In this document: piece after piece, positions 3,728 through 28,341 of the stretch
Layout of the letters: each line of letters starts with the position of its first letter
Numbering within the stretch: the stretch's first letter is position 1
IMG/VR virus record: IMGVR_UViG_3300006737_000136
Location: 1-28,341 of that record
Strand: one strand, 5' to 3'
Length of the DNA: 28,341 nt
Source of the DNA: a virus
The notes under the pieces: model-generated
The model's database searches: none
What the model was told of the DNA's origin: nothing
Seen by the model: only the letters and a program-made list of their open reading frames with translations
Made by a program: the position numbers and the translations under genes

Positions 3728-5755
3728 ATGCCTAATGAAAGACAATTAAGATCAGCGATTAATATATCCACTATTAAGATTATAAAACCAGAGGGACAGG
3801 TATTGGATGTTATCCCAGGTCCTGAATCCGCTAAATCTATATTTGCAAATTTAAACTTAATAGAGAGTGTATTTCAAACTGGAATTACTGGGTTGTTGAA
3901 GATAAAAGATCCCGGAATTGTCGGTGATTATTTCAACATGATTGGTAACGAGAAGGTAGAAATACAATTTGAATCACCAGACATTCCGAATTCTTCACAC
4001 ACTCTGACTTTGTGCGTAAGTAATGTTAGGTTTCTTGGAGACGAAGCATTTACTCAAGCACTATCTGGAGACAAAGGTAGGGCAGGAGCAGGTTGGGAAC
4101 TTGATTTAATCGCATGTGAAAGTTATTTTCTTGACAACGGCGTTTTAGATTACATGGACAATGACTTCATTGGACTTAATAGTGAGTTTGTGCAAACAAT
4201 AGCAGAAAAGTATTTAGATCCAGGCTCTACTTCTATGAGTCATGCACAAGAACCAACCTCAGTTGAGGAAACTCACAATTCAATGTGGTTGAAGAAAAAT
4301 CACATGATGTATCCTTGGGGGAAGGACGTTCATCCTCCAAACTTATTGAGTCTTATGAATAATATTTGTGAGAATTCTGTAACAGAGGATACACTTGGTG
4401 TTAATTACTTATTCTGGCAAGATTTCAATGGTTGGCATTTCAAATCGATTAGAAAACTGATTGATGATTCGGACACAACTTGGGGATTTGGTTTGTTTGG
4501 TGAAGATAAGGCAAGAACCTACTACATCACAGATCAAAATGTTCCAGTTAGTGAGTGGGGGGAGTTTGGTGATCCCAGAATAGAATCATTTAAGATTGTT
4601 TCAGAGTATGATCATCTAGCGTCTTTGCAAAATGGAGCATATTCTTCTTATTATGAATTAATAAAACCAAACTATGATGACGATTATTTTGAATATTTAG
4701 ATTTTACTTCCAACCACTCTAGAAGCAATTCCGACAGTTGGGGAGAACGAGAAATCATAACCTATGACTACCACAGAGATTCTGATTTGTGGGGTGATGC
4801 TGACGGTGGTGGTAGAATAGAAAAGTATAAATTGTTACCGGAAACATTTGATACATCAATTGATATCAGTGATCCGATGAACATACATCCTAAGTCGAGA
4901 AGAAAATATGATGAAAGTGGTCTCTATGGTTACTTTTCTTCTCCGTACAATTATTATGGTAGTAATAATCACGACTATATGGGAAGTATACAAACTGACG
5001 GGAAGTATGGAAAAACAAACGATATAATGTGGCAAACTATGTTTGATCAAACAAACTTAGATCCCGAAACCGCAAAGATAATTAAAGATGAAATTAAAGA
5101 ACCAATAAAACAAAATTACCAGAACTATGTTGAGAAGAAAAATTTAAAAGAAAAATGGAACGTCTATAGTCAATCTGTTTGCTGTGATGCAGAAGATTTA
5201 CAGAAGTACACATTCTTTGCAGTGATAGAAGATGCGGTGAAGGTTCAAGATAATGGTAGAGCAGGAATATATGAATATTCTTGGAGAGAAGTGGAAATCT
5301 GGCCAAAAGATTTCATCGATCAGGACGGTGGTGAAGTTATAACACCAGAAGGCGCTCCGGTCACGGTGGTTGCTGTAGAAGGTGGTATGGAAGGAGATTC
5401 GGATGATTCTCCCGCATACAACATAAACGAATTGATGAACTTAGATGAGGAGAATGATGTCTTCGCAGGACCTGGAGTAAACTTGGCAAATGATGATTTC
5501 AATGACTATCCAGAAGCATTCCAAATGATGCCAGTTGGAGGTTACTTTAGAGTAGGCGATGATCCGTGTGAAATTCCAGAGGAAGGAGAGTCTGGAGTTT
5601 ATTTTCATAAGCATATTGTTCAGATGTATAAGATTCCCAATCATGTATTATCGACAATTGTTGCACAAGAGGATGAGGAAAATTCAGAAATTCCAACAGA
5701 CACTTATCTCTTTGATGTCCCGAATGCACACGATGGTTTGTGTAGTTGTCCGTAG
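3728..5755 (+). CDS. 27: Baseplate hub protein, gp27-like, N-terminal part
   Basis: A 675-residue protein whose first 260 residues follow T4 gp27, the trimeric hub ring on which the tail tube and central spike sit. Matching landmarks are FQTGITGLLKIKDPG (about 50-64), the first tube-like domain with VEIQFES, the WELDLIACES strand, and the second-domain block PPNLLSLMNNICENS followed by NYLFWQDFNGWHFKSI (about 226-241), where T4 gp27 has a similar FVFVWQDIMGVNMM. The usual C-terminal strands of gp27 are not here; they appear in the separate gene at 8736. Residues 330-675 are acidic, tyrosine-rich and without an identifiable lysozyme domain; the protein ends with GLCSCP. The ribosome-binding site is weak (GAAAGTGAA). 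No frameshift or damage is visible inside the gene. Confidence 0.7.
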   Translation: MPNERQLRSAINISTIKIIKPEGQVLDVIPGPESAKSIFANLNLIESVFQTGITGLLKIKDPGIVGDYFNMIGNEKVEIQFESPDIPNSSHTLTLCVSNVRFLGDEAFTQALSGDKGRAGAGWELDLIACESYFLDNGVLDYMDNDFIGLNSEFVQTIAEKYLDPGSTSMSHAQEPTSVEETHNSMWLKKNHMMYPWGKDVHPPNLLSLMNNICENSVTEDTLGVNYLFWQDFNGWHFKSIRKLIDDSDTTWGFGLFGEDKARTYYITDQNVPVSEWGEFGDPRIESFKIVSEYDHLASLQNGAYSSYYELIKPNYDDDYFEYLDFTSNHSRSNSDSWGEREIITYDYHRDSDLWGDADGGGRIEKYKLLPETFDTSIDISDPMNIHPKSRRKYDESGLYGYFSSPYNYYGSNNHDYMGSIQTDGKYGKTNDIMWQTMFDQTNLDPETAKIIKDEIKEPIKQNYQNYVEKKNLKEKWNVYSQSVCCDAEDLQKYTFFAVIEDAVKVQDNGRAGIYEYSWREVEIWPKDFIDQDGGEVITPEGAPVTVVAVEGGMEGDSDDSPAYNINELMNLDEENDVFAGPGVNLANDDFNDYPEAFQMMPVGGYFRVGDDPCEIPEEGESGVYFHKHIVQMYKIPNHVLSTIVAQEDEENSEIPTDTYLFDVPNAHDGLCSCP

Positions 5756-5763
5756 TTTAAATT

Positions 5764-8715
5764 ATGAGTACACATAGAACATGTTGTTGTGGTTGTGGAG
5801 ACAGACCTTGTACAGGTATAGAATATCGGTACGAGAATACTTCCGGTTCATGTCCAATTTGTGCCATTGGTAGGTCCGAACGCGAAGAAGATCATGCACA
5901 GAGGTATGGATTTCAAAATACTGTTTATGCACCTATGGAGAACGGGCCAGATATTGATTTTTATGATCAAGCACATCCTTCTAATTTATATGTCGGAGAT
6001 ATATGTTTAGATTCTAGAGCGTTCTTACCTGATGGTGAAGGTTTTTCCGACCCAAGAGAGACGAACCTAGATATTTGTCCTCCATCCTGTAATCCTCAAG
6101 GTGCATATTATTATTCTGAAACAGGATGTGAGTTTAATCGTTGCTGGGAAAGATATCCGGGAAGTGGTAATTTTATCGCGCCCGGATCTAGTCCCGTCCC
6201 GAGAGTTACATATTATCAGTTCACTCCTCCGTGGGGACATCTTCCATGGTCTCCGCAGGTAATGAATGACTGGAAAGAAAATTGGAACGGTCCTCTTCAA
6301 CCAAGAGGAGATTGTACCATGCACTGCAATCCAGAAAACATCGGATGTCATAAATTAGCATTCGTTGGGGGACTTGGTAATTATTGGGGAAATCACATTG
6401 GTAACTCTGTTTTCGATAATTTACCTCGATGTGGTGCTGATATTTCTACAATCCCTCCCGTGAGGGGAGAGAATGATGAAGGTTGGTTATGGGTTAGGGA
6501 TTGGGTACAGAGTGGTGGTAAGTTGGTGATTCTTCAGGAATCTCTCAATACTGGATGCAGATATAAATTTGATTTTAGAGAATGGGCTAATTCTAATGTG
6601 CATACCAATAATGGTGGTGAAATGGGGAGAAGAAATAATTTCTCCTGCATGTATGATGATTGGTGGGAACTAGTAAGAGATCCTGAAGATGAAAGTGAAA
6701 ACCAATATGGAACAAGAGAGAGATACAATTATGTTGAAATAGAAGAACAGTTGAGAGAATTTGCATTCTTCTGTGGTGATGATGGGGAGCAGGATAGAGA
6801 GTTTTATCATCTATGCTATTCCGATTCTTATGTTGGTGTGGATAGATGTTTAGAGGAAGGACAATTTGAACCAACAATTAATAGGATTGAATATGATGAA
6901 ACTGGTGCATTTCCACAGATGTGTTGTCAGAAAACTTTATCTCCGTTTAAAAAAGGCGATGGAGAGGAAGAATATCCGTTTTCAGTCAACACATCCGACG
7001 CTGGTGGACTCGTTCCTCAAAACGGAGGAAAGAGATTAATAGGAAGTTGTGATACTCCGGCATGTACTGCGGTATATAAGAAAAACGGTTTGGGTGCTGT
7101 TATTGTAATTTACGACTCTACAATTTTTGGAGCAAAGGCCACACAAATTCCTATCGGGTGGTATGAACTGGCAGCACAACATCCTTCAAATACCGAAAAC
7201 CTGACAGCAGAAGAATTAAAACTCAAAGACTGCAATAATGATTTTTGGAAATTCTTATGTGAAGAATTTATCAGTGAGGGAGCAGAAGATTATCCTTGTG
7301 ATGAGGGAACTTGTTTTTGGGATGAATTCTCGAAACCATACAATGAGAACCAGTGTTTACTAGATGCAGGAACTGCCGCTTGTTGTTTACCGGATGGTTC
7401 TTGTGTTGATACAAATTACTGGGATTGTTTTAAAGAAGAAGGATTGTGGAGAGGATCTACAGACTTTATTTTTGACCATAACCTCAAATTTTTCGAGGAT
7501 CCACCGCCGTCGAACTTCGATCCCGATTTAAATGCTGGGTTTGGAGATCAAAGATTTTGTGAAGGTCGTTGCAATGCAACATGTGATCAACTAAGATATA
7601 GTTGTCAAGAATTTCCTATAGGTAAATGTTGTCAAACTGTGTTCAATGATGCAGGACAATGGATTGGTTATGAAGAAGCAACATCTGAAAATTACCAACA
7701 TGAATGTTTTTGTTTTGCAACTGAATCAAGCGATAAGTGTTGGGCAGATGGTTCTGGTTTCGCAGGTGGAAGCGATCCTCAATGGGACTGTCCGTGGGAA
7801 AATACAATAGAATGGCGTCGAGAGGGAAGTGGTGATTGGTGTACAACCTTTGATCCAGATCCTCCAGAATGTGAAACAGATTCAGATTGTCCATATAAAG
7901 AATGCTGTAGATTCGGAGAATGTATTTATTGTTCCGGTGGCGAATGTGGTCTGATCGGCGGTAATCCCGACGCAGAAACTTGTCCACCAGGCCTGTGTTG
8001 TAATGATGGATATTGTGAAGAATGTCCTCCAGAATGTTTCGGTGACGCGGATTGCTGCATCGACGCGGGCGAGGACTGTCGCCGGCGTTGCGAGGATGGT
8101 TATTGTGTCGATGAGGAACCACCAACAACAGAACCACCATCAGGAACTTGTCCTGACGGAACACCTGCAACCTGCGAACGGAACGATGATGACGGATCTG
8201 ATTTCGAGGAGAATGGTACAATTTGTGATGAAATGGGAGATTATGGTCAGGCAGGTTGTCGTACTTGCTACTGGGGTACGGCAGATAACGGTGATTGCGA
8301 AGAAGACAATGTACCGTTTCCTGATGATAGTTATGGATGTTGCGGAGTTCCACCAGGCTCATGTTGCGGTCAGTCTTCAAATCCTACAGCACCATGTGAA
8401 TGTAATACTTCCGACAATCAATGCTGTACCACATCATATAGCGAAGATTTCCCCGGCCCAATTCAGACATGCGAAAATTGTGGGTGTTCTGAAGGTGACG
8501 ATAGTGAATGTCCAGAGGGGTATTGTTGTTTTAATTTTGTATGCAACACATGCGAACCACCAGACTATTGTTGTACGGGGGTACAAAATGATTGTTTAGA
8601 GTCGGGTGGTACACCAGAAGAGTGTGATTGTAATAACTGTCTAGCAATCGGCGGTTGTGACATATGTGATTGTTACTGGACTGGAAATAATTTTAGTTGT
8701 TTCACAGATCCTTGA
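5764..8715 (+). CDS. Cysteine-rich structural protein between the two hub genes
   Basis: No known phage family is recognised. Regions in order: a cysteine cluster at residues 7-16 (CCCGCGDRPC) and nearby; a long aromatic-rich part; a probable Rossmann-like, glutamine-amidotransferase-type region made of LAFVGG (198-203), WVQSGGKLVILQES (247-260) and GLGAVIVIYDSTIFG (442-456), resembling DUF4350/ThuA-like domains but with no clear catalytic triad; one six-cysteine-type motif starting ACCLPDGSC at 539; then from about 700 a dense cysteine tail with WAP- or granulin-like spacing (for example ECETDSDCPYKECC). It starts 8 bases after the hub stop with no Shine-Dalgarno sequence, and an in-frame TAA lies 4 bases upstream, so ATG 5764 is the first possible ATG. 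Its place inside the hub cluster suggests a virion component. Residues 760-777 are encoded by a GC-rich patch. Confidence 0.8.
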   Translation: MSTHRTCCCGCGDRPCTGIEYRYENTSGSCPICAIGRSEREEDHAQRYGFQNTVYAPMENGPDIDFYDQAHPSNLYVGDICLDSRAFLPDGEGFSDPRETNLDICPPSCNPQGAYYYSETGCEFNRCWERYPGSGNFIAPGSSPVPRVTYYQFTPPWGHLPWSPQVMNDWKENWNGPLQPRGDCTMHCNPENIGCHKLAFVGGLGNYWGNHIGNSVFDNLPRCGADISTIPPVRGENDEGWLWVRDWVQSGGKLVILQESLNTGCRYKFDFREWANSNVHTNNGGEMGRRNNFSCMYDDWWELVRDPEDESENQYGTRERYNYVEIEEQLREFAFFCGDDGEQDREFYHLCYSDSYVGVDRCLEEGQFEPTINRIEYDETGAFPQMCCQKTLSPFKKGDGEEEYPFSVNTSDAGGLVPQNGGKRLIGSCDTPACTAVYKKNGLGAVIVIYDSTIFGAKATQIPIGWYELAAQHPSNTENLTAEELKLKDCNNDFWKFLCEEFISEGAEDYPCDEGTCFWDEFSKPYNENQCLLDAGTAACCLPDGSCVDTNYWDCFKEEGLWRGSTDFIFDHNLKFFEDPPPSNFDPDLNAGFGDQRFCEGRCNATCDQLRYSCQEFPIGKCCQTVFNDAGQWIGYEEATSENYQHECFCFATESSDKCWADGSGFAGGSDPQWDCPWENTIEWRREGSGDWCTTFDPDPPECETDSDCPYKECCRFGECIYCSGGECGLIGGNPDAETCPPGLCCNDGYCEECPPECFGDADCCIDAGEDCRRRCEDGYCVDEEPPTTEPPSGTCPDGTPATCERNDDDGSDFEENGTICDEMGDYGQAGCRTCYWGTADNGDCEEDNVPFPDDSYGCCGVPPGSCCGQSSNPTAPCECNTSDNQCCTTSYSEDFPGPIQTCENCGCSEGDDSECPEGYCCFNFVCNTCEPPDYCCTGVQNDCLESGGTPEECDCNNCLAIGGCDICDCYWTGNNFSCFTDP
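7375..8712 (+). repeat. Cysteine-rich tail with one six-cysteine repeat and WAP-like motifs
   Basis: Residues 538-983 of the protein at 5764. One motif of the CC-x5-C-x7-C type opens it (ACCLPDGSC), as in the fibre genes further right. After about residue 700 cysteines occur every 3-8 residues in pairs such as CPPGLCC, CCIDAGEDC and CCGVPPGSCC, more like WAP or granulin folds than the regular 40-residue repeat. These sequences are protein-level repeats; the DNA is not a perfect tandem repeat. Confidence 0.7.
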
Positions 8716-8735
8716 TATATAAGTTGGAGAAATAA

Positions 8736-9461
8736 ATGGCAAAAGCAGATCATATCTTAAAACTCTCTTCCTTTGTTAACAATGTTTGGCCTACTATCAG
8801 GGTAGGTCATTCCATTGGTGCAATTAATGACAAATATCCATGTGCAAATCCAGATGGTCCGGTAGATAATTCTGAGTGTGACGAAGATGATCCGTTGTGC
8901 AATTGTCCATGTCAGGAATTAAAACCAACCGAACCAGAACCAACTGACGAAGAATTACAAGAAGCACTCGAATCAATCAAAGAGTGTGATTATATCGAAA
9001 GTTCTTTGGGAGAAGATTGGTTGGGATGTATCTGGGCAGATCAAGATCATCCAAGTAGTTGTGGTTGTCCGTGTAGAGGTGATAACTTTGGTGAATATCT
9101 TGACTATACAAGAACATATGCAACATACTGGAACACTCCCGAGACTACTCCTCTGTGGAGAGATGCACAGATGTTTCTTATAACTGCACAAACTGCACAA
9201 ATAGCACTGAACGGTGATTTAAGTTTAAGACCTGGAGAACTTATTAAAATTATTAATAAAATGCCTGGGAATGATGATCCAAATACAAGAAGATTTTCAG
9301 GTAGGTGGATGGTGACGACTATATCTCATGTAATTCAAAATGAAAGTCATAGGATGCTAATAGGATTATCAAGAGATAGTAGTCCAGTCGAACCAAACGA
9401 AAGTCAAATTTTAGGATGGTTTGATTCGGTTGCGGACTGGTTAGGCGGATTATTTGACTAA
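8736..9461 (+). CDS. Baseplate hub protein, gp27-like C-terminal domain as a separate gene
   Basis: A 241-residue protein whose last 90 residues match the C-terminal tube domain of gp27/late-control-D hubs: TAQTAQIALNGD, then LSLRPGELIKIINKM (about 160-174), a variable loop, FSGRWMVTTISHVIQ and HRMLIGLSRDSS. T4 gp27 ends with the same order (LTPGVKIIFND, FYVDEVIHEL, THLYMFTNATK). The N-terminal half is different: two cysteine clusters (CNCPCQ and CGCPCRG) flank an acidic, proline-rich linker. The start has a clear TTGGAGAAATAA ribosome-binding site, so it is a separate gene. The simplest reading is that the hub is built from two chains, this one and the gene at 3728. It could also be a second, shortened hub-like protein. 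Confidence 0.68.
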   Translation: MAKADHILKLSSFVNNVWPTIRVGHSIGAINDKYPCANPDGPVDNSECDEDDPLCNCPCQELKPTEPEPTDEELQEALESIKECDYIESSLGEDWLGCIWADQDHPSSCGCPCRGDNFGEYLDYTRTYATYWNTPETTPLWRDAQMFLITAQTAQIALNGDLSLRPGELIKIINKMPGNDDPNTRRFSGRWMVTTISHVIQNESHRMLIGLSRDSSPVEPNESQILGWFDSVADWLGGLFD

Positions 9462-19853: not shown

Positions 19854-22800
19854 ATGGTAGCACCAGTAGTTCATGGAAGTAGTTTCTTTTTACCAATAGG
19901 CGGTGATGCAATCACCGGTCCTATCGGACCCACCGGACCTACTGGAGATTCTGGTTCTACTGGACCTACTGGACCTACTGGTGCAACTGGACTTACTGGT
20001 GCAAGTATGATGGGTTCTACTGGACCTATCGCTGGTTCCACTGCAATGTATATTCAGGATGGAAAATTACACCAAATATTTCATGGATATAATTTTCATG
20101 GAGATCCGATTGGTGGTTACACTGGTGGTTATGTGACATCCACTCTTGCTAAAGGACCTACTGGAAATTCAATAAACAATATAGATGGCGGTAACACTTC
20201 GGGTGGACCAGAAGGAACACCGCCTGGTTATACATTGCCTAGCGGTGGTGCAACTGTATTTAAGGTTAGGAATTCTAGTAATACAATCACTATAAAAGCA
20301 ATCGAAGTTGCAGGTGATGCTTTAACCTTAACAGATAATACTGCAACCAGTGAAATAAATCTACACTACGATAGAGGAAACTTTGGTTATCTAAACACAC
20401 AACCAAGTTCGGGAATCGGTTCTCTTGTTGGAACAGACGAGGGACAACCAGTTCGTCTTCATGGTTTCACTGGTGCTTCTTACGACAGTGGACTAAATGC
20501 ACTTGATGTTCGTGTAAAATCATATAAAGAAAAGTCCAAGTATTTAACCGTTGACAATGGTGATCCCGGAACATACGATATTCGGAGATTTGGTGAAGAA
20601 GGTAATCCTCCATTTTATCAAGGAACAATAGATCCGAATATCGCAAAGGTATTCATAGCAGATATGAGAGGACTCACCTTTGCGGATATGCATGAGAGTG
20701 GTTCTACTGGTCCAGTTCAATTTGTTATAAATGATGCATCCTTTGGATATACAGGAAATAATATTTCAGGAATTCCAGCAGAAGGAAAACCAAACTTAAC
20801 AAAGGCATTCACTCTCATTGTTCACGGTGCAGAAAATTCATTAGTTCCTGTGGAAAGATTTACGAATGTTACTTGGCCTTTAGATTTAGCACCATGTTTC
20901 AGTGGTGGTACTGATATCTTTAACTTCTTTTGGCTTCCATGTGAAACACGGGGAGAAATATGTCCCAATGGAGTAGCATGGCATGGAAATCTGATTCAGT
21001 GGAAATCTCCCGATAATATAATGGACAATGATACAGATAATAATCCTTTCTTCTGCCATGAAGTTGCAGGAACAAGAAACTTATATACTGATGGTGTTCA
21101 AGATTATCCCGGTATTGAATTTTTAGATTCAGCAGGAACAACGGGCGCAACAGGTGCCTGTTGCTTGGGTGATGGAATTTGTGTTCATACAACAGAGTCA
21201 AAATGCTTCGGTGGTTACTTTGTTGGGTGCGGAACAACATGCGGAAGTTCAACAGAATCAGTATGTTTTGAAAAAGGACCTTGTTGTTCCTATAACACAT
21301 CAACAAAGGAAACAGATTGTACGCAACAAACAATTGATGCTTGTGTAAATTATTCTGATGTTCTCTATATTGAAACCACATTTGGTGGAACAGGAAATGA
21401 ATGCTACAACATGGACTGTGAATCTGCATCAAAAGATTTAGGTGCCTGTTGTGATGGTTTGGGAAATTGCGAACTACTGACACATTCAGAATGTGATACT
21501 TTAGGAAGATTTTTCCAAGGTGAAGGAATTCCATGCACAAAGAGATATGGAAATGATATTATTGAAATTTGTGCGGGTGGGACTGGTGCTTGTTGTGAAG
21601 GTTCTTCTTGCAGTAATAGCACCACATTCAAAACTTGTGTGAACGCAGGCAATCTATATGCTGGAGACAGAAGCAAATGCTGTGGTGTTGACTGTGTTTC
21701 AGATGACGAATTTAACGGAAACTCTGGAATTCAAGCACTAAATCTACAACCCGGTGATTTATATGCAGGTGGAATGGTTGTTGGAATATACAGACCTCAT
21801 GGTGGTTCTGTGCTTGGACACAACAGTTTCGGAAAGGATAGAACTGCAAACTGGGAAGAATTGATGGTTGGTGCTACTGGTTCTACCTCAGACAGTGGTT
21901 TAATAGGAGAAACATACAGGTCAAAGTATGATTTCCACGGTTATGGATTCACATCTGACAAGGGATGTACAGAATTTAATGAGTTGGATATTCTGAATGA
22001 CCAAACCCGTGTTGATGCGTACTATGTGATCACTGCATTATCTCCACTTGCTGTAACAGGTGATAGAGAAGTAGTTCTTTTACAAGACTATCCAAGTGCA
22101 ACAGCAGAATTTTATTGGAGTAACAGAGGAAGTTCTTGGGGACCAATCTATAATCAAGACACTCTACAATATAATGACTTAAACGAAGACTATAAAAATA
22201 AATTTAGTCTAAATGAAGGTTACTGGTATGATAGATTTATGGAAGAACCTTCTCTGATAAATCTTCCTTTCAATACTTATACCACATGTGCAAAGGCAAG
22301 AAGTCTTGGAGTCGATGGTGTAAGTAAACTCCTAACAAGACCGAATCAATCAGCAAACGGTTTCTGGCATCGAAACTATGGATTCCATAACAACTTAAGA
22401 ATTATTAGTGCGGACAATGCATTATCACAGGTATATAACGAAACTAATAATTTATACACATCAGAGCAATTTGGACCTGGTTTGACTGCTGATTATATTT
22501 CTGCGTTCAGAATTTGTAGATTATATAGAGATGAATTAAATGGAACCACAGGGGCGGTTGATGGTTTGACTGGTTCTAATATTCCTGAAGTTTCTTCTTG
22601 GTATATTCCAAGTCATGATGAACTAGGATTTATTGCAGAGAATTGTGTTCGTGATAATCAATACGACTTTGATTTGAATTCTCATCTTTTAGCATATGGT
22701 GGTAGTCCATATAAAGGATGGTATTGGACATCTACTGGTGCATTCGATGAGACAAGAGGAATCACAGGGGGATATGAAGAAGGTGTAATGGTATCTTCCA

Positions 22801-23024
22801 ATTCTGGTGCAACTGCTGATCCCGGAACAGTTGCCTGGGCAATGAAGTTTGACGTTGAAGGAAATAAAGACGAATTTTTGGTAGGCAAGAAAAATAGAAC
22901 TACGAATACATATCAAGTAAGACCTATTCGTATGATTCGTTGCGACGGAAAATCTTCAAGTGACAAACTCACAAAAATGCCTAAGGTGTTGCGAGACAGC
23001 GATAAAAATATAAATCAGGATTAA
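19854..23024 (+). CDS. Collagen-like fibre with six-cysteine repeats and C-type-lectin-like tip
   Basis: A 1056-residue mosaic fibre. Residues 22-51 are a collagen-like Gly-X-Thr/Pro stalk. A beta module at about 134-230 has a counterpart in the next two fibres. Residues 434-613 hold three to four six-cysteine repeats beginning GACCLGDGIC (434), GPCC (475), GACCDGLGNC (530) and GACCEGSSC (578). The C-terminal 430 residues look like a DUF1566-type C-type-lectin fold: QPGDLYAGGMVVGIY near 628, SSWYIPSHDELGFI (914-927), GWYWTSTG (955-962) and RPIRMIRC (1023-1030), matching the usual W-x-P-x-x-x-E-L, YW-S/T-ST and VRP-R strands of that family. Such folds bind ligands in many phage and bacterial surface proteins. 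A TAAGGAAG ribosome-binding site precedes the ATG. Confidence 0.82.
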   Translation: MVAPVVHGSSFFLPIGGDAITGPIGPTGPTGDSGSTGPTGPTGATGLTGASMMGSTGPIAGSTAMYIQDGKLHQIFHGYNFHGDPIGGYTGGYVTSTLAKGPTGNSINNIDGGNTSGGPEGTPPGYTLPSGGATVFKVRNSSNTITIKAIEVAGDALTLTDNTATSEINLHYDRGNFGYLNTQPSSGIGSLVGTDEGQPVRLHGFTGASYDSGLNALDVRVKSYKEKSKYLTVDNGDPGTYDIRRFGEEGNPPFYQGTIDPNIAKVFIADMRGLTFADMHESGSTGPVQFVINDASFGYTGNNISGIPAEGKPNLTKAFTLIVHGAENSLVPVERFTNVTWPLDLAPCFSGGTDIFNFFWLPCETRGEICPNGVAWHGNLIQWKSPDNIMDNDTDNNPFFCHEVAGTRNLYTDGVQDYPGIEFLDSAGTTGATGACCLGDGICVHTTESKCFGGYFVGCGTTCGSSTESVCFEKGPCCSYNTSTKETDCTQQTIDACVNYSDVLYIETTFGGTGNECYNMDCESASKDLGACCDGLGNCELLTHSECDTLGRFFQGEGIPCTKRYGNDIIEICAGGTGACCEGSSCSNSTTFKTCVNAGNLYAGDRSKCCGVDCVSDDEFNGNSGIQALNLQPGDLYAGGMVVGIYRPHGGSVLGHNSFGKDRTANWEELMVGATGSTSDSGLIGETYRSKYDFHGYGFTSDKGCTEFNELDILNDQTRVDAYYVITALSPLAVTGDREVVLLQDYPSATAEFYWSNRGSSWGPIYNQDTLQYNDLNEDYKNKFSLNEGYWYDRFMEEPSLINLPFNTYTTCAKARSLGVDGVSKLLTRPNQSANGFWHRNYGFHNNLRIISADNALSQVYNETNNLYTSEQFGPGLTADYISAFRICRLYRDELNGTTGAVDGLTGSNIPEVSSWYIPSHDELGFIAENCVRDNQYDFDLNSHLLAYGGSPYKGWYWTSTGAFDETRGITGGYEEGVMVSSNSGATADPGTVAWAMKFDVEGNKDEFLVGKKNRTTNTYQVRPIRMIRCDGKSSSDKLTKMPKVLRDSDKNINQD
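19917..20030 (+). repeat. Collagen-like Gly-X-Y coding repeat
   Basis: Nine-base units close to GGACCTACT are repeated in frame, encoding GPTG and GATG-type triplets. A near-perfect Gly-X-Y run covers residues 22-51 and continues less regularly as GSTGPIAGS. Such runs form triple-helical stalks in phage fibres and can change length by recombination. Confidence 0.85.
21153..21695 (+). repeat. Six-cysteine repeat array (three to four units)
   Basis: Encodes residues 434-613 of the fibre at 19854. Units start at 434, 475 (divergent), 530 and 578, each with a CC pair, a cysteine 4-5 residues later and another 7-8 residues on; the fourth spacing is 11-13. A GG or GR aromatic position follows the fourth cysteine (GGYF, GRFF), as in the array of the next gene. 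Confidence 0.8.
23010..23017 (+). promoter_or_regulatory. Possible late promoter box before the large cysteine-rich fibre
   Basis: TATAAATC, 7 of 8 to the late box, in the last codons of the upstream fibre and 21 bases before the ATG at 23039. Its spacing is similar to that of the exact boxes at 15989 and 27448. It is coding DNA, and similar TATAAATN matches occur by chance elsewhere. Confidence 0.3.
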
Positions 23025-23038
23025 GGGAATGATTTGTT

Positions 23039-26000
23039 ATGCCATCTATTCAGGGTTCTAGTAGGATATTAACCACCAGTGGGACAAACTCTCTCACTGG
23101 TCCCGCTGGGCCTATAGGCCCTACTGGTGCTACTGGTGCTACTGGAGCAACAGGTCCCATTGGTGGTGTTGCAACTGGTATCGGTATTATATCTGCGACT
23201 GGTGCAAGCGGCGGACCTGGTGGTTCGTATGGTAACGACTTGATTACATTTTATTTAACAGACGGAAGCACTGTCGGTGTGAGTGGTGCAAGAGGCGCTA
23301 CTGGTGTGGACGATAGTGAAAATTTCCAGATCATCAATGCAATCGAAGGACCTGAATACGGACAAATTTTCCAAGTCAAGAATGGTATTACTGCCTATTT
23401 TAAATCACTTACAGTTAGTGGTGAAGACATTTCGATTGGTGTAACTTCTGATTACACCATACTTCTTTCTGGTACAACATACGATCAAGGCAGATTAGGA
23501 AACACAGGTGAACTTGTTTATAATTTCTCTGGTGCATCTGCACACGGAGCATTAAATACATTCTGGAGTGGTGATCAACTCACTGCAAGAATATTAACTC
23601 ATAGAGAATCGAAAACCGGAGAACTCAATAATAATATTGTTATTGGGACAGAGGTTAATCAAAGAGGATCAAATCCTATAAACACATCTCCGATTGCAGG
23701 TACGGCAGAGGTTCATGGAACTGTTGTTCCATTTACTTATATAACTCAACATCAAGAAAATTCAAATTCTCCGATCACAAAAGGAATGGTAAGTGCATTT
23801 CATCTAGGAAAAACTGGAGATGATAATGTAATTTACGAATTCACTGGATTGACATTTGACAATTTAATTCAGGGTGACATTTTTATTGGTTCTTGTTGTT
23901 TCTGTGAAAACTCTAATGGTCCAGATAGATCAGGATGTGTTGATTATGTCAATAAAACTTATTGTGATTCTGTTGGTGGTTCATTCTCATCTATTCCTTG
24001 TTTAAATCGTCCTGAAGGACCTGATTGCTATCCACAGGGAGCATGTTGTCTTCTTGGTGGATGCACAGACACCTCCGAAGAAAAATGTCAAACGTATGGT
24101 GGATTCTTTGTTGACGGTAATACATGTCAAGAAGTTGAACTTCTGGGAGGATGTCCAGATCCATGCTCAGAAGAAGAAATAGGCGCATGTTGTATCAACC
24201 AAGTTTGTTTTGAACTGACAGAATATCAATGTTCCTTTGAACCAAACAGTGTTTGGATACAAGGTTCGTGTACTGGTGATGACGCTATCAATTGTTGCCT
24301 CGAAACTCAAAATGGTGCGTGTTGTTTAGACGAGGCGTGTTATAACACATCTGCACTTCTTTGTTCTAAGATGGTATCAAGTGGTGGTACGCCAGGAATA
24401 TTCTGGGGAATCGGTTCAAAGTGTGCAGGACCAGATGAAGAAAGTTTATACTATCCCCACGATTGTACTCGAAGAGGATTTGGTAATCAAACTTTCGGGG
24501 AATTGGAGGATGGTCTTTGTCCGAATGGAGATTTACCTCCATGTACAGATTGTGTTGGTTGGACTCAAGAAATTTCTTCTGATCCTACAATAAACATATG
24601 TGCTGCTGATGATGTCTATTGTCCCTGTGATACTGGTGACGGTCAATATGGGTGTAATGTCTGCGGTTCAAATTTAGAATCATGTAGTACAATTATCACT
24701 GTCGATGGAACATGCTGGGAATGTTGTTGTGAAACAAAAGAAGAAGACGAAGAACCGCCAGTCGAACTGGGTGCATGTTGTGTGGATCAAACGTGTTCAT
24801 ATGTAACAGTCGAAGAATGCAACAATAGTGGTGGATATTTCCTAGAAGGACAGACTTGTGAATCAAATCCATGCAGTAACCCTCAAGGGGCATGTTGCTA
24901 TGAGTTTGATAATTGTCAACTTATAGATGAGATAACATGTAGCAATAGTGGTGGTACTTTCTATCAAGATTCTACATGCAGTATTTGCGACACACTTCAA
25001 TCTCCGCTTGGTGCTTGCTGCTATACGGATGGTTCTTGTATCGAAGAGGCTACAGAAGAGCAATGCGATATTACTGGAGGTGAGTTTAAAGAAGATTTAA
25101 CTTGCAGTTCTTGTGATACTATCATAACTGGTGCATGTTGTAATAGTGATGGTACTTGTACTGATGATTCTACCGAAGAAGATTGTGACGGTAAATTCAA
25201 CGAAGGTTTAAGTTGTGCAGATGCTGGTTGTGATGAAGTAGGAATATGTTGTGGTGGAGCATATAATATTAACGGTCAACCAAGACCATGTACTGCCAGT
25301 GGTGTTCCTATTACGGAAACTATTTGCGATTCGCTTTCCACTCAAGAATATCCAACTATATGGTATTCGGATACTAATCATGAATGTTGCGGAAGTTGTT
25401 GCTGGTGGGGAGGAAACCCCGGCGAAGAAAGTTATCATTGCGATGAAACTGGTAATAAATTATTCTATGATTGTGAGAATTTAGCAGATGTAGGTGCTGA
25501 GGCTGGAACAGTTCCTTGTTACCCAGATGGTGATTATCAAGATGTGACATGGACTTCGGGTGATTGTTCGTCGGAGAATGGAAATCAAGGATGTCCGAAT
25601 GAAATTATAGGATGTTGCCTAGATGGTGAAGTGCAGATAGGAGAAACTTCTAAATGTTACTGTGAACAATACAATGGAAATGATTCCGGTTGGACGGAAG
25701 GTCCATGTCCCGATGATAAAGACACCAATGCGTGTTGTATTACTGGTTTCTGTGTAGACGATATACCCCCAGAAGATTGTGCCGGTCTTGGTGGAACAAC
25801 AGTATTTAATACACTGTGTAATGACACTACATGTGATGGTGCTTGTTGTGATGCTGCTAATGCCGACTGCACTCAAACCAATGAAACTGCCTGCTTTGGA
25901 ACCTCTACATTCCTCGGAGTTGGTGTGAGTTGCGATGCTTGTCAGGCATTTACTGCTGAAGGTGCTTGTTGCTTCCAAGATGGAACATGTGAAATTAGAG

Positions 26001-27439
26001 AAGAAACTAATTGTGCTGCAAGTAATGGTTATTGGCAAGGTCCCGAAACAACTTGTAATGATAATGATGTAGATTGTTCGATTTACATGCTGGGTGCATG
26101 TTGCTCTGCTCGGAACGCATTATGTGTTGAGGTAACCGAGGCCGAATGTGCAAGTAAACTTCCTGCCATATATGAGGAGACAGGAGATTCAACACCACCA
26201 GTTGGAATGCAAGCACCAGATGTCGAATATCTATGGGCAGGACCAGGAACGTCTTGTGGAAGCACATACACTCTCGGTGGTACTACCTTCACTTTACCAT
26301 TTTCTCTTACACCTGATCTTGGCTCGAATACATGTGGATATTACTTCGGTGGTATAGATGCGCCTGGACGCTTCAGTGTTCCAGAAGAATATCGGTTGGG
26401 TGACTCTGATATGGGATTATGTTGTCAGCAGAAAGAATGGGCTACGCAATCTATTCCTCCGTATGGTTGTGGGTGTCAAGGTTCCCGGCCTCCAGTGGAA
26501 GATGATGAGGGAGGTAAGACTTGCCCAGAATTACCAGAAGAACCTTGGTGTACATTCTGTCAGACTGAGGCTATCTATAAATATTGCGGTGGTCCATCGA
26601 TAGTAACTAAATCTTCTTGGGAATGTAGTGCTTGTAATACAGGTGTGAATCCGGGATTATCTCTCAATAGAAGAAGTATTTGGACAACAGATGCTCTGGG
26701 AAATCCCGCTTTGATATTCAGACCAATCGATGGTGCTATTGATCAACTATATAAAAATAGTGATGCTTTTGGAACAGAGGTACTTGATCCTAAATTGCGT
26801 ATACTTGCCGGCCTGTCTCCTCAAGTAATGTTTACGGTTGAAGTCGAAGGTGTTGAAGAAGAAAGACCTGCTGTCATTATTGGTCCCCCTGCACAAGAGT
26901 GTATGGGTATCAAACCACCTGAGATCGTCATTGACTGCCCAACTGTACAGACTGCTCCCCGTGCAGACTATGGTGAGTATCCATGCAACGGATACGAATA
27001 CCAAGGCGATTTATATTGCGGTCCACTAGAGTTCGGATTATGCGCTCCTGAAGATGGATGGGAATGTCCTGATGGTTACTTCGAGGTGGAGCCGGGAGTA
27101 TGTCATCTGAACGGTACGACGCTCGGACATTGTTGCTGTAAACACCCTCACAAATATAGAACTGACACCACCGCTCCCGGTGGCGTAATTTGTGAATGTT
27201 ATCATGGGTACATAACAGAAGAGGAATGTAAACTGAAGAAGTGCGGCCCGGTTCCCAATGATTTAGGTCAGGGAGAGCCTACGGACGCGAACTGGTGTTG
27301 TCCCCACACGATAAACGCACAAGGACCCTGTCCTCCATTTTGTGGCCAGAAATGCACCGAGGCCGCATGTGAACAGGAATGCTGTGATGGTCATCAATGT
27401 TGTGGTGAAGGGCCGCCTCCCCCGATTCAGGAAGGATGA
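23039..27439 (+). CDS. Large collagen-like fibre with about fifteen six-cysteine repeat units
   Basis: A 1466-residue protein with about 140 cysteines by hand count, none before residue 286. Residues 1-20 begin MPSIQGSSRIL; 21-43 form a collagen-like run; about 60-283 form a cysteine-free beta module shared with the partial gene at 27484. Repeat units start at 284, 334, 382, 426, 578, 617, 658, 698, 735, 858, 897, 934, 975, 1019 and 1126. Regular units follow CC-x(4-6)-C-x(7-8)-C-x(9-13)-C-x(2-8)-C with a GG-aromatic after the fourth cysteine; units at 426, 735, 1019 and 1126 are expanded. A cysteine-free segment at about 1206-1286 is followed by a second, irregular cysteine-rich end with CCCKH and QCCGEG. 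Probably an extended, disulfide-stiffened or metal-binding virion fibre; function not recognised. The ribosome-binding site is AAGGGAA. Confidence 0.85.
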   Translation: MPSIQGSSRILTTSGTNSLTGPAGPIGPTGATGATGATGPIGGVATGIGIISATGASGGPGGSYGNDLITFYLTDGSTVGVSGARGATGVDDSENFQIINAIEGPEYGQIFQVKNGITAYFKSLTVSGEDISIGVTSDYTILLSGTTYDQGRLGNTGELVYNFSGASAHGALNTFWSGDQLTARILTHRESKTGELNNNIVIGTEVNQRGSNPINTSPIAGTAEVHGTVVPFTYITQHQENSNSPITKGMVSAFHLGKTGDDNVIYEFTGLTFDNLIQGDIFIGSCCFCENSNGPDRSGCVDYVNKTYCDSVGGSFSSIPCLNRPEGPDCYPQGACCLLGGCTDTSEEKCQTYGGFFVDGNTCQEVELLGGCPDPCSEEEIGACCINQVCFELTEYQCSFEPNSVWIQGSCTGDDAINCCLETQNGACCLDEACYNTSALLCSKMVSSGGTPGIFWGIGSKCAGPDEESLYYPHDCTRRGFGNQTFGELEDGLCPNGDLPPCTDCVGWTQEISSDPTINICAADDVYCPCDTGDGQYGCNVCGSNLESCSTIITVDGTCWECCCETKEEDEEPPVELGACCVDQTCSYVTVEECNNSGGYFLEGQTCESNPCSNPQGACCYEFDNCQLIDEITCSNSGGTFYQDSTCSICDTLQSPLGACCYTDGSCIEEATEEQCDITGGEFKEDLTCSSCDTIITGACCNSDGTCTDDSTEEDCDGKFNEGLSCADAGCDEVGICCGGAYNINGQPRPCTASGVPITETICDSLSTQEYPTIWYSDTNHECCGSCCWWGGNPGEESYHCDETGNKLFYDCENLADVGAEAGTVPCYPDGDYQDVTWTSGDCSSENGNQGCPNEIIGCCLDGEVQIGETSKCYCEQYNGNDSGWTEGPCPDDKDTNACCITGFCVDDIPPEDCAGLGGTTVFNTLCNDTTCDGACCDAANADCTQTNETACFGTSTFLGVGVSCDACQAFTAEGACCFQDGTCEIREETNCAASNGYWQGPETTCNDNDVDCSIYMLGACCSARNALCVEVTEAECASKLPAIYEETGDSTPPVGMQAPDVEYLWAGPGTSCGSTYTLGGTTFTLPFSLTPDLGSNTCGYYFGGIDAPGRFSVPEEYRLGDSDMGLCCQQKEWATQSIPPYGCGCQGSRPPVEDDEGGKTCPELPEEPWCTFCQTEAIYKYCGGPSIVTKSSWECSACNTGVNPGLSLNRRSIWTTDALGNPALIFRPIDGAIDQLYKNSDAFGTEVLDPKLRILAGLSPQVMFTVEVEGVEEERPAVIIGPPAQECMGIKPPEIVIDCPTVQTAPRADYGEYPCNGYEYQGDLYCGPLEFGLCAPEDGWECPDGYFEVEPGVCHLNGTTLGHCCCKHPHKYRTDTTAPGGVICECYHGYITEEECKLKKCGPVPNDLGQGEPTDANWCCPHTINAQGPCPPFCGQKCTEAACEQECCDGHQCCGEGPPPPIQEG
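23099..23167 (+). repeat. Collagen-like Gly-X-Y coding repeat
   Basis: In-frame GGTGCTACT-type nine-base units encode residues 21-43, a GPIGPTGATGATGATGPIGG run. It is equivalent in position to the runs at 19917 and 27544. Confidence 0.85.
23888..26545 (+). repeat. Six-cysteine repeat array (about fifteen units)
   Basis: Encodes residues 284-1169 of the fibre at 23039. The DNA of most unit starts resembles GGTGCATGTTGT (GACC), recurring at irregular distances: about 117-120 bases for regular units, longer where sequences are inserted. Units at 578, 617, 658 and 698 form the most regular stretch. The units differ in most other residues, so this is an old or diversified array and not a recent perfect tandem repeat. 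Confidence 0.85.
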
Positions 27440-27447
27440 ATGGTGCT

Positions 27448-27455
27448 TATAAATA
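27448..27455 (+). promoter_or_regulatory. T4-type late promoter box before the last fibre gene
   Basis: An exact TATAAATA in the 44-base gap after the large fibre gene and 28 bases before the next ATG. Both this box and the one at 15989 are intergenic and just upstream of fibre genes, which supports a real late promoter. An ATAGGA ribosome-binding site follows. Confidence 0.58.
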
Positions 27456-27483
27456 GTTTAGCATTAAAGTATAGGATTTAATT

Positions 27484-28310
27484 ATGCCATCGATTCAGGG
27501 TTCTAGTAGAATATTAAACACCAGTGGTATCAACGGATTAACCGGAGATGCTGGTCCGATAGGGCCTACTGGTCCTACCGGAGCAACTGGTGCGGCAGGT
27601 GCTACTGGTTCCATCGGTTCGGTTGGAGTTGGTATTATATCTGCGACGGGAGCAAGTGGTGGAATCGGTGGTTCGTATGGCAACGACTTGATTACATTTT
27701 ATCTAACAGACGGAAGCACAGTTGGTGTAAGTGGAGCAAGAGGTGATACGGGTGCAACTGATTCTGAGAATTTCCAGATCATTAATGCAATTGAAGGACC
27801 TGAATACGGACAAATTTTCCAAGTCAAAAATGGTATTACTGCATATTTCAAATCACTTACAGTTAGTGGTAAAGATATTTCGATTGGTGCAACTTCTGAT
27901 TATACAATTCTTCTCAATGGTGTTGCATACGCTCAAGGTAGATTAGGTAACACAGGTGAACTTGTTTATAACTTTAGTGGTGCTTCCGCACATGGTGCGT
28001 TGAATACCTTCTGGAGTGGCGATCAACTTACTGCAAGAGTATTAAGTTTTAGAGAATCTTCAGGAAGCAACACACTTTTATCAACTCCAGAAAATACTTC
28101 TCCAATTGCAGGAACAGCAGATGTTGATGGGACCGCAGTTCTCTTTGAATATGTGGTTGATGTTGATTATGATATCAATGGAATGACTGCAACGAGCAGT
28201 GGAATTCATTTAGGAAAAACCGGAGATGAGAATGTAATATACCGATTTGCGGGAGTGACTCATGGAGCAATATATGACACAGGTTCTCGAATAGGTTCCT
28301 GTTGTTTCTG
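27484..28310 (+). repeat. Second copy of the fibre N-terminal module (first copy 23039-23903)
   Basis: Start codon, collagen run, beta module and first CC pair follow in the same order and nearly the same length as at 23039. Long identical DNA blocks are visible, for example the stretch coding PEYGQIFQVK and ITAYFKSLTVSG, with scattered silent changes. The segment before the first cysteines is the least similar. Confidence 0.85.
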
Positions 28311-28341
28311 TGAAAAGGAAGGCGAATATTCGTCTAGCACA
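27484..28341 (+). CDS. Collagen-like cysteine fibre, tandem paralogue, cut by window end
   Basis: An open frame of 286 codons with no stop before the window edge. It starts MPSIQGSSRIL, has a collagen-like run at residues 21-48, and then the same beta module as the gene at 23039: DLITFYLTDGSTVGVSGARG, then NFQIINAIEGPEYGQIFQVK and NGITAYFKSLTVSG are identical between the two. It reaches the first cysteine block (GSCCFCEK) right at the edge, so the remainder is probably cysteine-rich too. It is a tandem duplicate; DNA differences in the module are mainly at third codon positions. It diverges more in the part before the cysteines (about 195-270), where the paralogue has SNPINTSPIAGTAEVHG. The ribosome-binding site is AGGA, with an exact late promoter box upstream. 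Confidence 0.85.
   Translation, partial: MPSIQGSSRILNTSGINGLTGDAGPIGPTGPTGATGAAGATGSIGSVGVGIISATGASGGIGGSYGNDLITFYLTDGSTVGVSGARGDTGATDSENFQIINAIEGPEYGQIFQVKNGITAYFKSLTVSGKDISIGATSDYTILLNGVAYAQGRLGNTGELVYNFSGASAHGALNTFWSGDQLTARVLSFRESSGSNTLLSTPENTSPIAGTADVDGTAVLFEYVVDVDYDINGMTATSSGIHLGKTGDENVIYRFAGVTHGAIYDTGSRIGSCCFCEKEGEYSSST
27544..27627 (+). repeat. Collagen-like Gly-X-Y coding repeat
   Basis: In-frame nine-base units encode residues 21-48 (GPIGPTGPTGATG and following), matching the runs in the two upstream fibres but differing in length and unit order, as expected where such repeats expand and contract. Confidence 0.85.

Follow-up and report, generated by a model that had tools for sequence, protein, structure and literature searches.

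Phages that carry several receptor-binding proteins with shared N-terminal parts and differing distal parts are already established. In the Ackermannviridae, the branched tail spikes TSP1-4 are encoded by several receptor-binding genes with conserved N-terminal and variable C-terminal parts, and recombination between added and resident tail-spike copies has been observed (PMC11414711). The Alcyoneusvirus RaK2 has a cluster of fibre genes, several of them with related N-terminal heads (PMC10253068). In pelagimyophages and cyanomyophages a variable host recognition cluster lies ahead of the neck gene gp14, and marine T4-like phages encode structural proteins with triple collagen repeats near the host recognition cluster (PMC7029224).

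Here we analyse an array of fibre genes, called A, B and C by type, in an IMG/VR record and in related contigs. The window, that is the whole stretch of DNA analysed, is the entire record of 28,341 bp (G000) and stops at position 28341. In outline, the array appears to resemble the known multi-fibre systems. It is like the Ackermannviridae TSP1-4 genes in comprising several genes, here putative receptor-binding ones, with a conserved N-terminal part and, in the G011 pair, differing distal parts, but differs from these spikes in that its stalk appears collagen-like and its body is cysteine-rich. Neither a gp10-like XD domain nor a beta-helix depolymerase was matched by Pfam or PHROG in A, B1 or B2 of the window, or by Pfam in the B and C proteins of relatives that were scanned, and because no defining domain was found we do not file the array among the tail-spike systems. 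RaK2 and the array are both fibre-gene clusters with related heads, although several RaK2 fibres carry polysaccharide-degrading domains (PMC10253068) and none was detected in the array. The pelagimyophage and cyanomyophage cluster and the array are both variable fibre regions ahead of neck genes in T4-like phages, with collagen repeats near the former and apparent ones in the latter, whereas the main text of PMC7029224 makes no mention of duplication or cysteine, both features of the array.

The array sits among T4-like tail genes

By its gene content, the source of the window can be assigned to an uncultured T4-like myovirus, of which we see the tail and structural region. PHROG matches within the window include a tail tube, a head closure protein, a baseplate tube cap, wedges (phrog_232, phrog_261 and phrog_219) and a gp6-like wedge, and in the relative G012 the array is followed by matches to a head-tail adaptor, the head closure Hc2, a tail sheath stabilizer and a terminase. 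Taken together, window and G012 hold T4-type baseplate, tube, neck and terminase genes, with the fibre array between the baseplate genes and the neck and terminase genes. The gp6-like protein of the window has less than 60% identity to T4-like phages in all 2108 INPHARED records with a match, and its best matches include pelagiphage, cyanophage and Vibrio phages. Elsewhere (3728-9461 of the window), two ORFs match separate parts of phrog_350 (profile positions 173-299 and 350-435), and between them stands an ORF of 983 aa (5764-8715) that is rich in cysteine and has no PHROG match, as if one tail gene had been split around it.

Table 1. Features of the fibre array in the window.
Feature	Position	Strand	Description or basis
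Fibre A, 1056 aa	19854..23024	+	N-terminal GSS motif, collagen stalk, conserved C-terminal 406 aa
Fibre B1, 1466 aa	23039..27439	+	GSS motif, collagen repeat, beta module, cysteine-rich GACC-repeat body
B1 N-terminal module, residues 1-289, to GSCCFC	23039..23905	+	Alignments A1 and A3
B1 module, strongly constrained part, residues 1-185	23039..23593	+	dN/dS 0.14 against B2
B1-B2 spacer	27440..27483	+	Resembles the B-C spacers of relatives
TATAAATA late-promoter-like box	27448..27455	+	36 nt upstream of the B2 start
Fibre B2, first 286 codons, open at record end	27484..28341	+	ORF call, alignment to B1

Two homologous B genes stand in tandem

B1 and B2 are homologous, and as adjacent genes with a common conserved N-terminal module they form a multi-fibre array (Table 1). 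An earlier note on this DNA had read the gene at 27484 as a repeat of the N-terminal module of the gene at 23039, and this is borne out: the two are 82% identical in DNA over 575 bp (E 8e-163) and 75% identical in protein by search (E 4e-121), a figure that becomes 73% when 285 residues are aligned globally. The N-terminal module of B2 reaches residue 276 (28311), after which 10 further residues are readable. Similarity is highest in residues 1-185, with divergence from residue 186 to the GSCCFC motif, and the earlier statement that the DNA changes fall mostly at third positions holds for the first part and not for the whole: the differences at the three codon positions are about 20/17/60 over the first ~175 aligned codons (residues to ~185) and 62/53/113 over all 285. 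B2 matches the PHROG annotations 'tail fiber' and 'collagen like minor tail'; a short GxTGxTG stretch is visible, and the Pfam Collagen match (Gly-X-Y repeat) is under the cut-off. B1 contains 9.5% Cys. Fibre A, which has a weak Pfam match to Lcl_C, is single-copy in every relative examined.

The second copy could in principle come from another strain, its B gene having been fused to the contig during assembly, since the record ends within the copy and contigs of this group often end in B genes (G006 and G007 within B, G014 within B2). We regard such an artefact as extremely unlikely, because upstream of the two starts the sequences differ and have no word in common at the junction, because exact matches between the copies extend to 35 bp at most, and because the same arrangement is found in independent contigs, one of them with both copies complete.

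Relatives carry one or two copies of B and C

Relatives were IMG/VR contigs found by scans with the B modules, the C-terminus of A and the C modules; near-identical contigs were counted once, and records very near the window are possibly absent from these searches. Their common order is A-B-C, followed by D or other cysteine-rich genes. In 12 arrays one can read which gene comes after B: it is C in nine (G001, G002, G004, G005, G009, G010, G012, G013 and L144) and a second B in three (the window, G011 and G014). G011 has the order A-B1-B2-C1-C2, in which both B genes are full length (990 aa and 1101 aa), so that complete tandem B copies are present in a relative of the window. In G014, B1 is 3870 aa long and B2 is readable for 43 codons, the contig ending 129 bp into B2; the final stretch before the contig end is identical in B1 and B2, and this may be why the contig breaks there. 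Two copies of C are present in G009, G010, G011 and G012. B2, A and B1 had no protein match in INPHARED, nor did a scan of GTDB genomes yield one. A scan of viral contigs with alignment A3 gave 79 loci, five of which were examined in detail: L055 is a fibre array, L057 has a similar order of collagen- and cysteine-rich genes, and the remaining three look like unrelated collagen-repeat proteins.

Two oddities were seen in these contigs. The 3870 aa B of G014 (L048 172-11784, minus strand), which has no Pfam match, compares with 885-1466 aa in the other complete B genes, and the C1 gene of G011 (L049 6966-9807) is interrupted by Ns and changes frame, which may reflect an assembly fault.

The shared module is under strong purifying selection

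The N-terminal module of B is under strong purifying selection in residues 1-185. A comparison of dN/dS along the paired modules, which the earlier note had proposed as a check, put the window pair at 0.14 in residues 1-185 (95% bootstrap 0.07-0.22) and at 0.48 in residues 186-292 (0.25-0.82). Of five further paralogue pairs checked, four show a similar contrast between module and distal part: dN/dS is 0.13 in the module and 0.35-0.64 beyond it in the B pair of G011, and 0.12-0.14 and 0.39-0.49, respectively, in the C pairs of G009, G010 and G012, whereas in the C pair of G011 it is 0.15 in both parts, and constraint does not fall outside the module. The low value in the window pair implies that both copies have been constrained during most of the period after they split. 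This makes it very improbable that the visible part of B2, although only 286 codons long, is a decaying duplicate fragment without function, and its start codon, AGGA and late promoter are all present.

B and C were duplicated separately

In the tree of N-terminal modules, B1 and B2 of the window are sisters (97/98), as are B1 and B2 of G011 (100/99). Grouping B1 with B1 across the window and G011 was rejected (AU p 1.2e-7), and so was grouping B2 with B2 (AU p 1.5e-6). Since the B copies group by genome, the B duplications look lineage-specific. The C copies of G009, G010 and G012, on the other hand, group by copy downstream of the module, and C1 does so in the N-terminal module as well (94/99), so the C duplication is older than the split of these three lineages; the C pair of G011 stands apart from them in the tree. 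Judged from these trees, the duplications of B and of C are separate and took place in different lineages, and copies have arisen more than once. The idea that the cluster grows by gene duplication is thus supported, with complete B1-B2 and C1-C2 pairs in relatives and B copies that group by genome.

A single ancient duplication of B, with N-terminal modules kept alike by gene conversion, could give a similar picture, and dS is indeed somewhat lower in the N-terminal module than downstream in all six pairs. Furthermore, a first count of sites in the C1/C2 pairs leaned toward conversion, but this signal was lost when only synonymous codons were considered (p 0.4-0.7). In the window pair, synonymous change does not differ between the N-terminal module and the rest (p 0.57); in the B pair of G011 it does (p 0.0125) in a test that includes poorly aligning tails, and synonymous comparisons over these tails were discarded because the alignment is unreliable there. 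Moreover, the C1 modules retain their orthologous grouping, and the bodies of the two G011 B proteins, like their modules, group together (89/91). Gene conversion after one ancient duplication seems improbable to us on these grounds.

B2 follows a spacer of the kind found between B and C

The late promoter and ribosome-binding site that had been attributed to B2 are both there, as the TATAAATA box of Table 1 and an AGGA 7 nt upstream of the start, but spacer and promoter are of the type found between B and C. By count alone the box is not significant (4 in the window against 2.0 expected). Its position is conserved: the same box stands ahead of the first C gene in L028, L030, L033, L035 and L144, and it is followed by GTNTAGCA in the window, L030 and L035. 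When the B1-B2 spacer of the window was compared with the B-C spacers of G001, G002 and G011, 0 of 2000 shuffles reached the observed score, the shuffles being mononucleotide ones and the TATAAATA box supplying part of the alignment score; the same test found no likeness to the B1-B2 spacers of G011 or G014. A spacer and promoter of this type ahead of B2 suggest that B2 starts where C starts, and that it is not a plain copy of B1 together with the upstream region of B1. The TATAAATC at 23009, 30 nt before the start at 23039, still belongs to the coding sequence of the preceding gene, at its very end (..NINQD stop), and B1 therefore lacks an exact late-promoter box of its own.

We consider it probable that a second tail-fibre-like B gene begins in the window, in an array whose fibres have a common docking head and diverging bodies, and that this copy originated by crossover between the starts of B and C. 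The N-terminal module (GSS motif, collagen stalk and beta module) would dock each fibre at the same kind of site on the virion, and the cysteine-rich distal parts would be free to diverge and to bind different surface structures. A crossover between the similar starts of a B and a C gene would place the new copy behind a B-C spacer and its late promoter, and would keep C downstream.

The spacer could also be read in another way, namely that the gene at 27484 is a chimera with a B head on a C body, formed when a copied B module took the place of the N-terminal module of a C fibre. Such a replacement would leave a B-C spacer without a second B body; B2 does directly follow a B-C-type spacer with a C-type late promoter, no C gene is visible in the window, and C follows B in 9 of the 11 arrays of relatives in which the next gene is visible. 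We nevertheless hold this to be unlikely, as B-type sequence runs through GSCCFC almost to the contig end, and the second B of G011 retains a B-type body and is then followed by a C gene. With regard to the favoured crossover between B and C starts, one such route does not cover all cases, since the B1-B2 spacer of G011 is not of the B-C type. More generally, and tentatively, we hypothesise that the array may grow through crossovers in the similar start regions of the fibre genes, each event supplying a complete new fibre with a ready promoter and a docking head while its body is free to change, with B and C copy number varying by lineage as a result.

Inspected by eye, the spacers ahead of C2 (L028 19648, L033 20296 and L050 12050), which contain CATAAATA, resemble variants of the B-C1 spacer in which the box has a different first base.

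These phages form a natural series with one or two copies per fibre type, in which the origin of a new fibre can be traced through its spacer, head and tail. If the heads dock at one kind of site, the array could serve as a model for how a phage gains receptor-binding proteins without breaking its tail.

Likeness among the fibres, and differing tails in G011

The proposal of a shared end with different cysteine-rich bodies agrees with the conserved N-terminus and needs correction as to the bodies. In 30-residue blocks, the two B proteins of G011 are 80-100% identical to residue ~209, 32-73% to residue ~610 and 9-38% thereafter, and their tails beyond residue ~610 have no mutual similarity by BLASTP (E 1). 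In this pair the beta module and the first cysteine-rich block thus belong to the recognisably shared part, and the difference is confined to the tails.

Likeness also extends across fibre types. A distant copy of the beta module had been proposed for the gene at 19854; with collagen removed, A and B match weakly (hhalign probability 30%, E 5.5e-4), and the likeness of B to the C modules of relatives is clearer (probability 93%, E 2.5e-7). Every A, B and C protein listed has GSS among its 10 N-terminal residues, and this motif could plausibly be a common docking peptide. Sequence searches with either profile found no PDB match, and AlphaFold2 gave low pLDDT for the B N-terminal module and the A C-terminus (32 and 27). 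Docking by the head, receptor binding and diversification of host range through the bodies may be supposed.

Pfam found no family in B1 of the window or in the C proteins of G010. In the B protein of G008 (L027 11224-14298) it detects a von Willebrand A domain (residues 631-796, E 2e-8), and that of G007 (L031 11255-16177) has a sub-threshold Pfam match to FG-GAP; both would fit an adhesive role and do not show one. The G007 protein also has an insertion of several hundred residues between its collagen stretch and its beta module.
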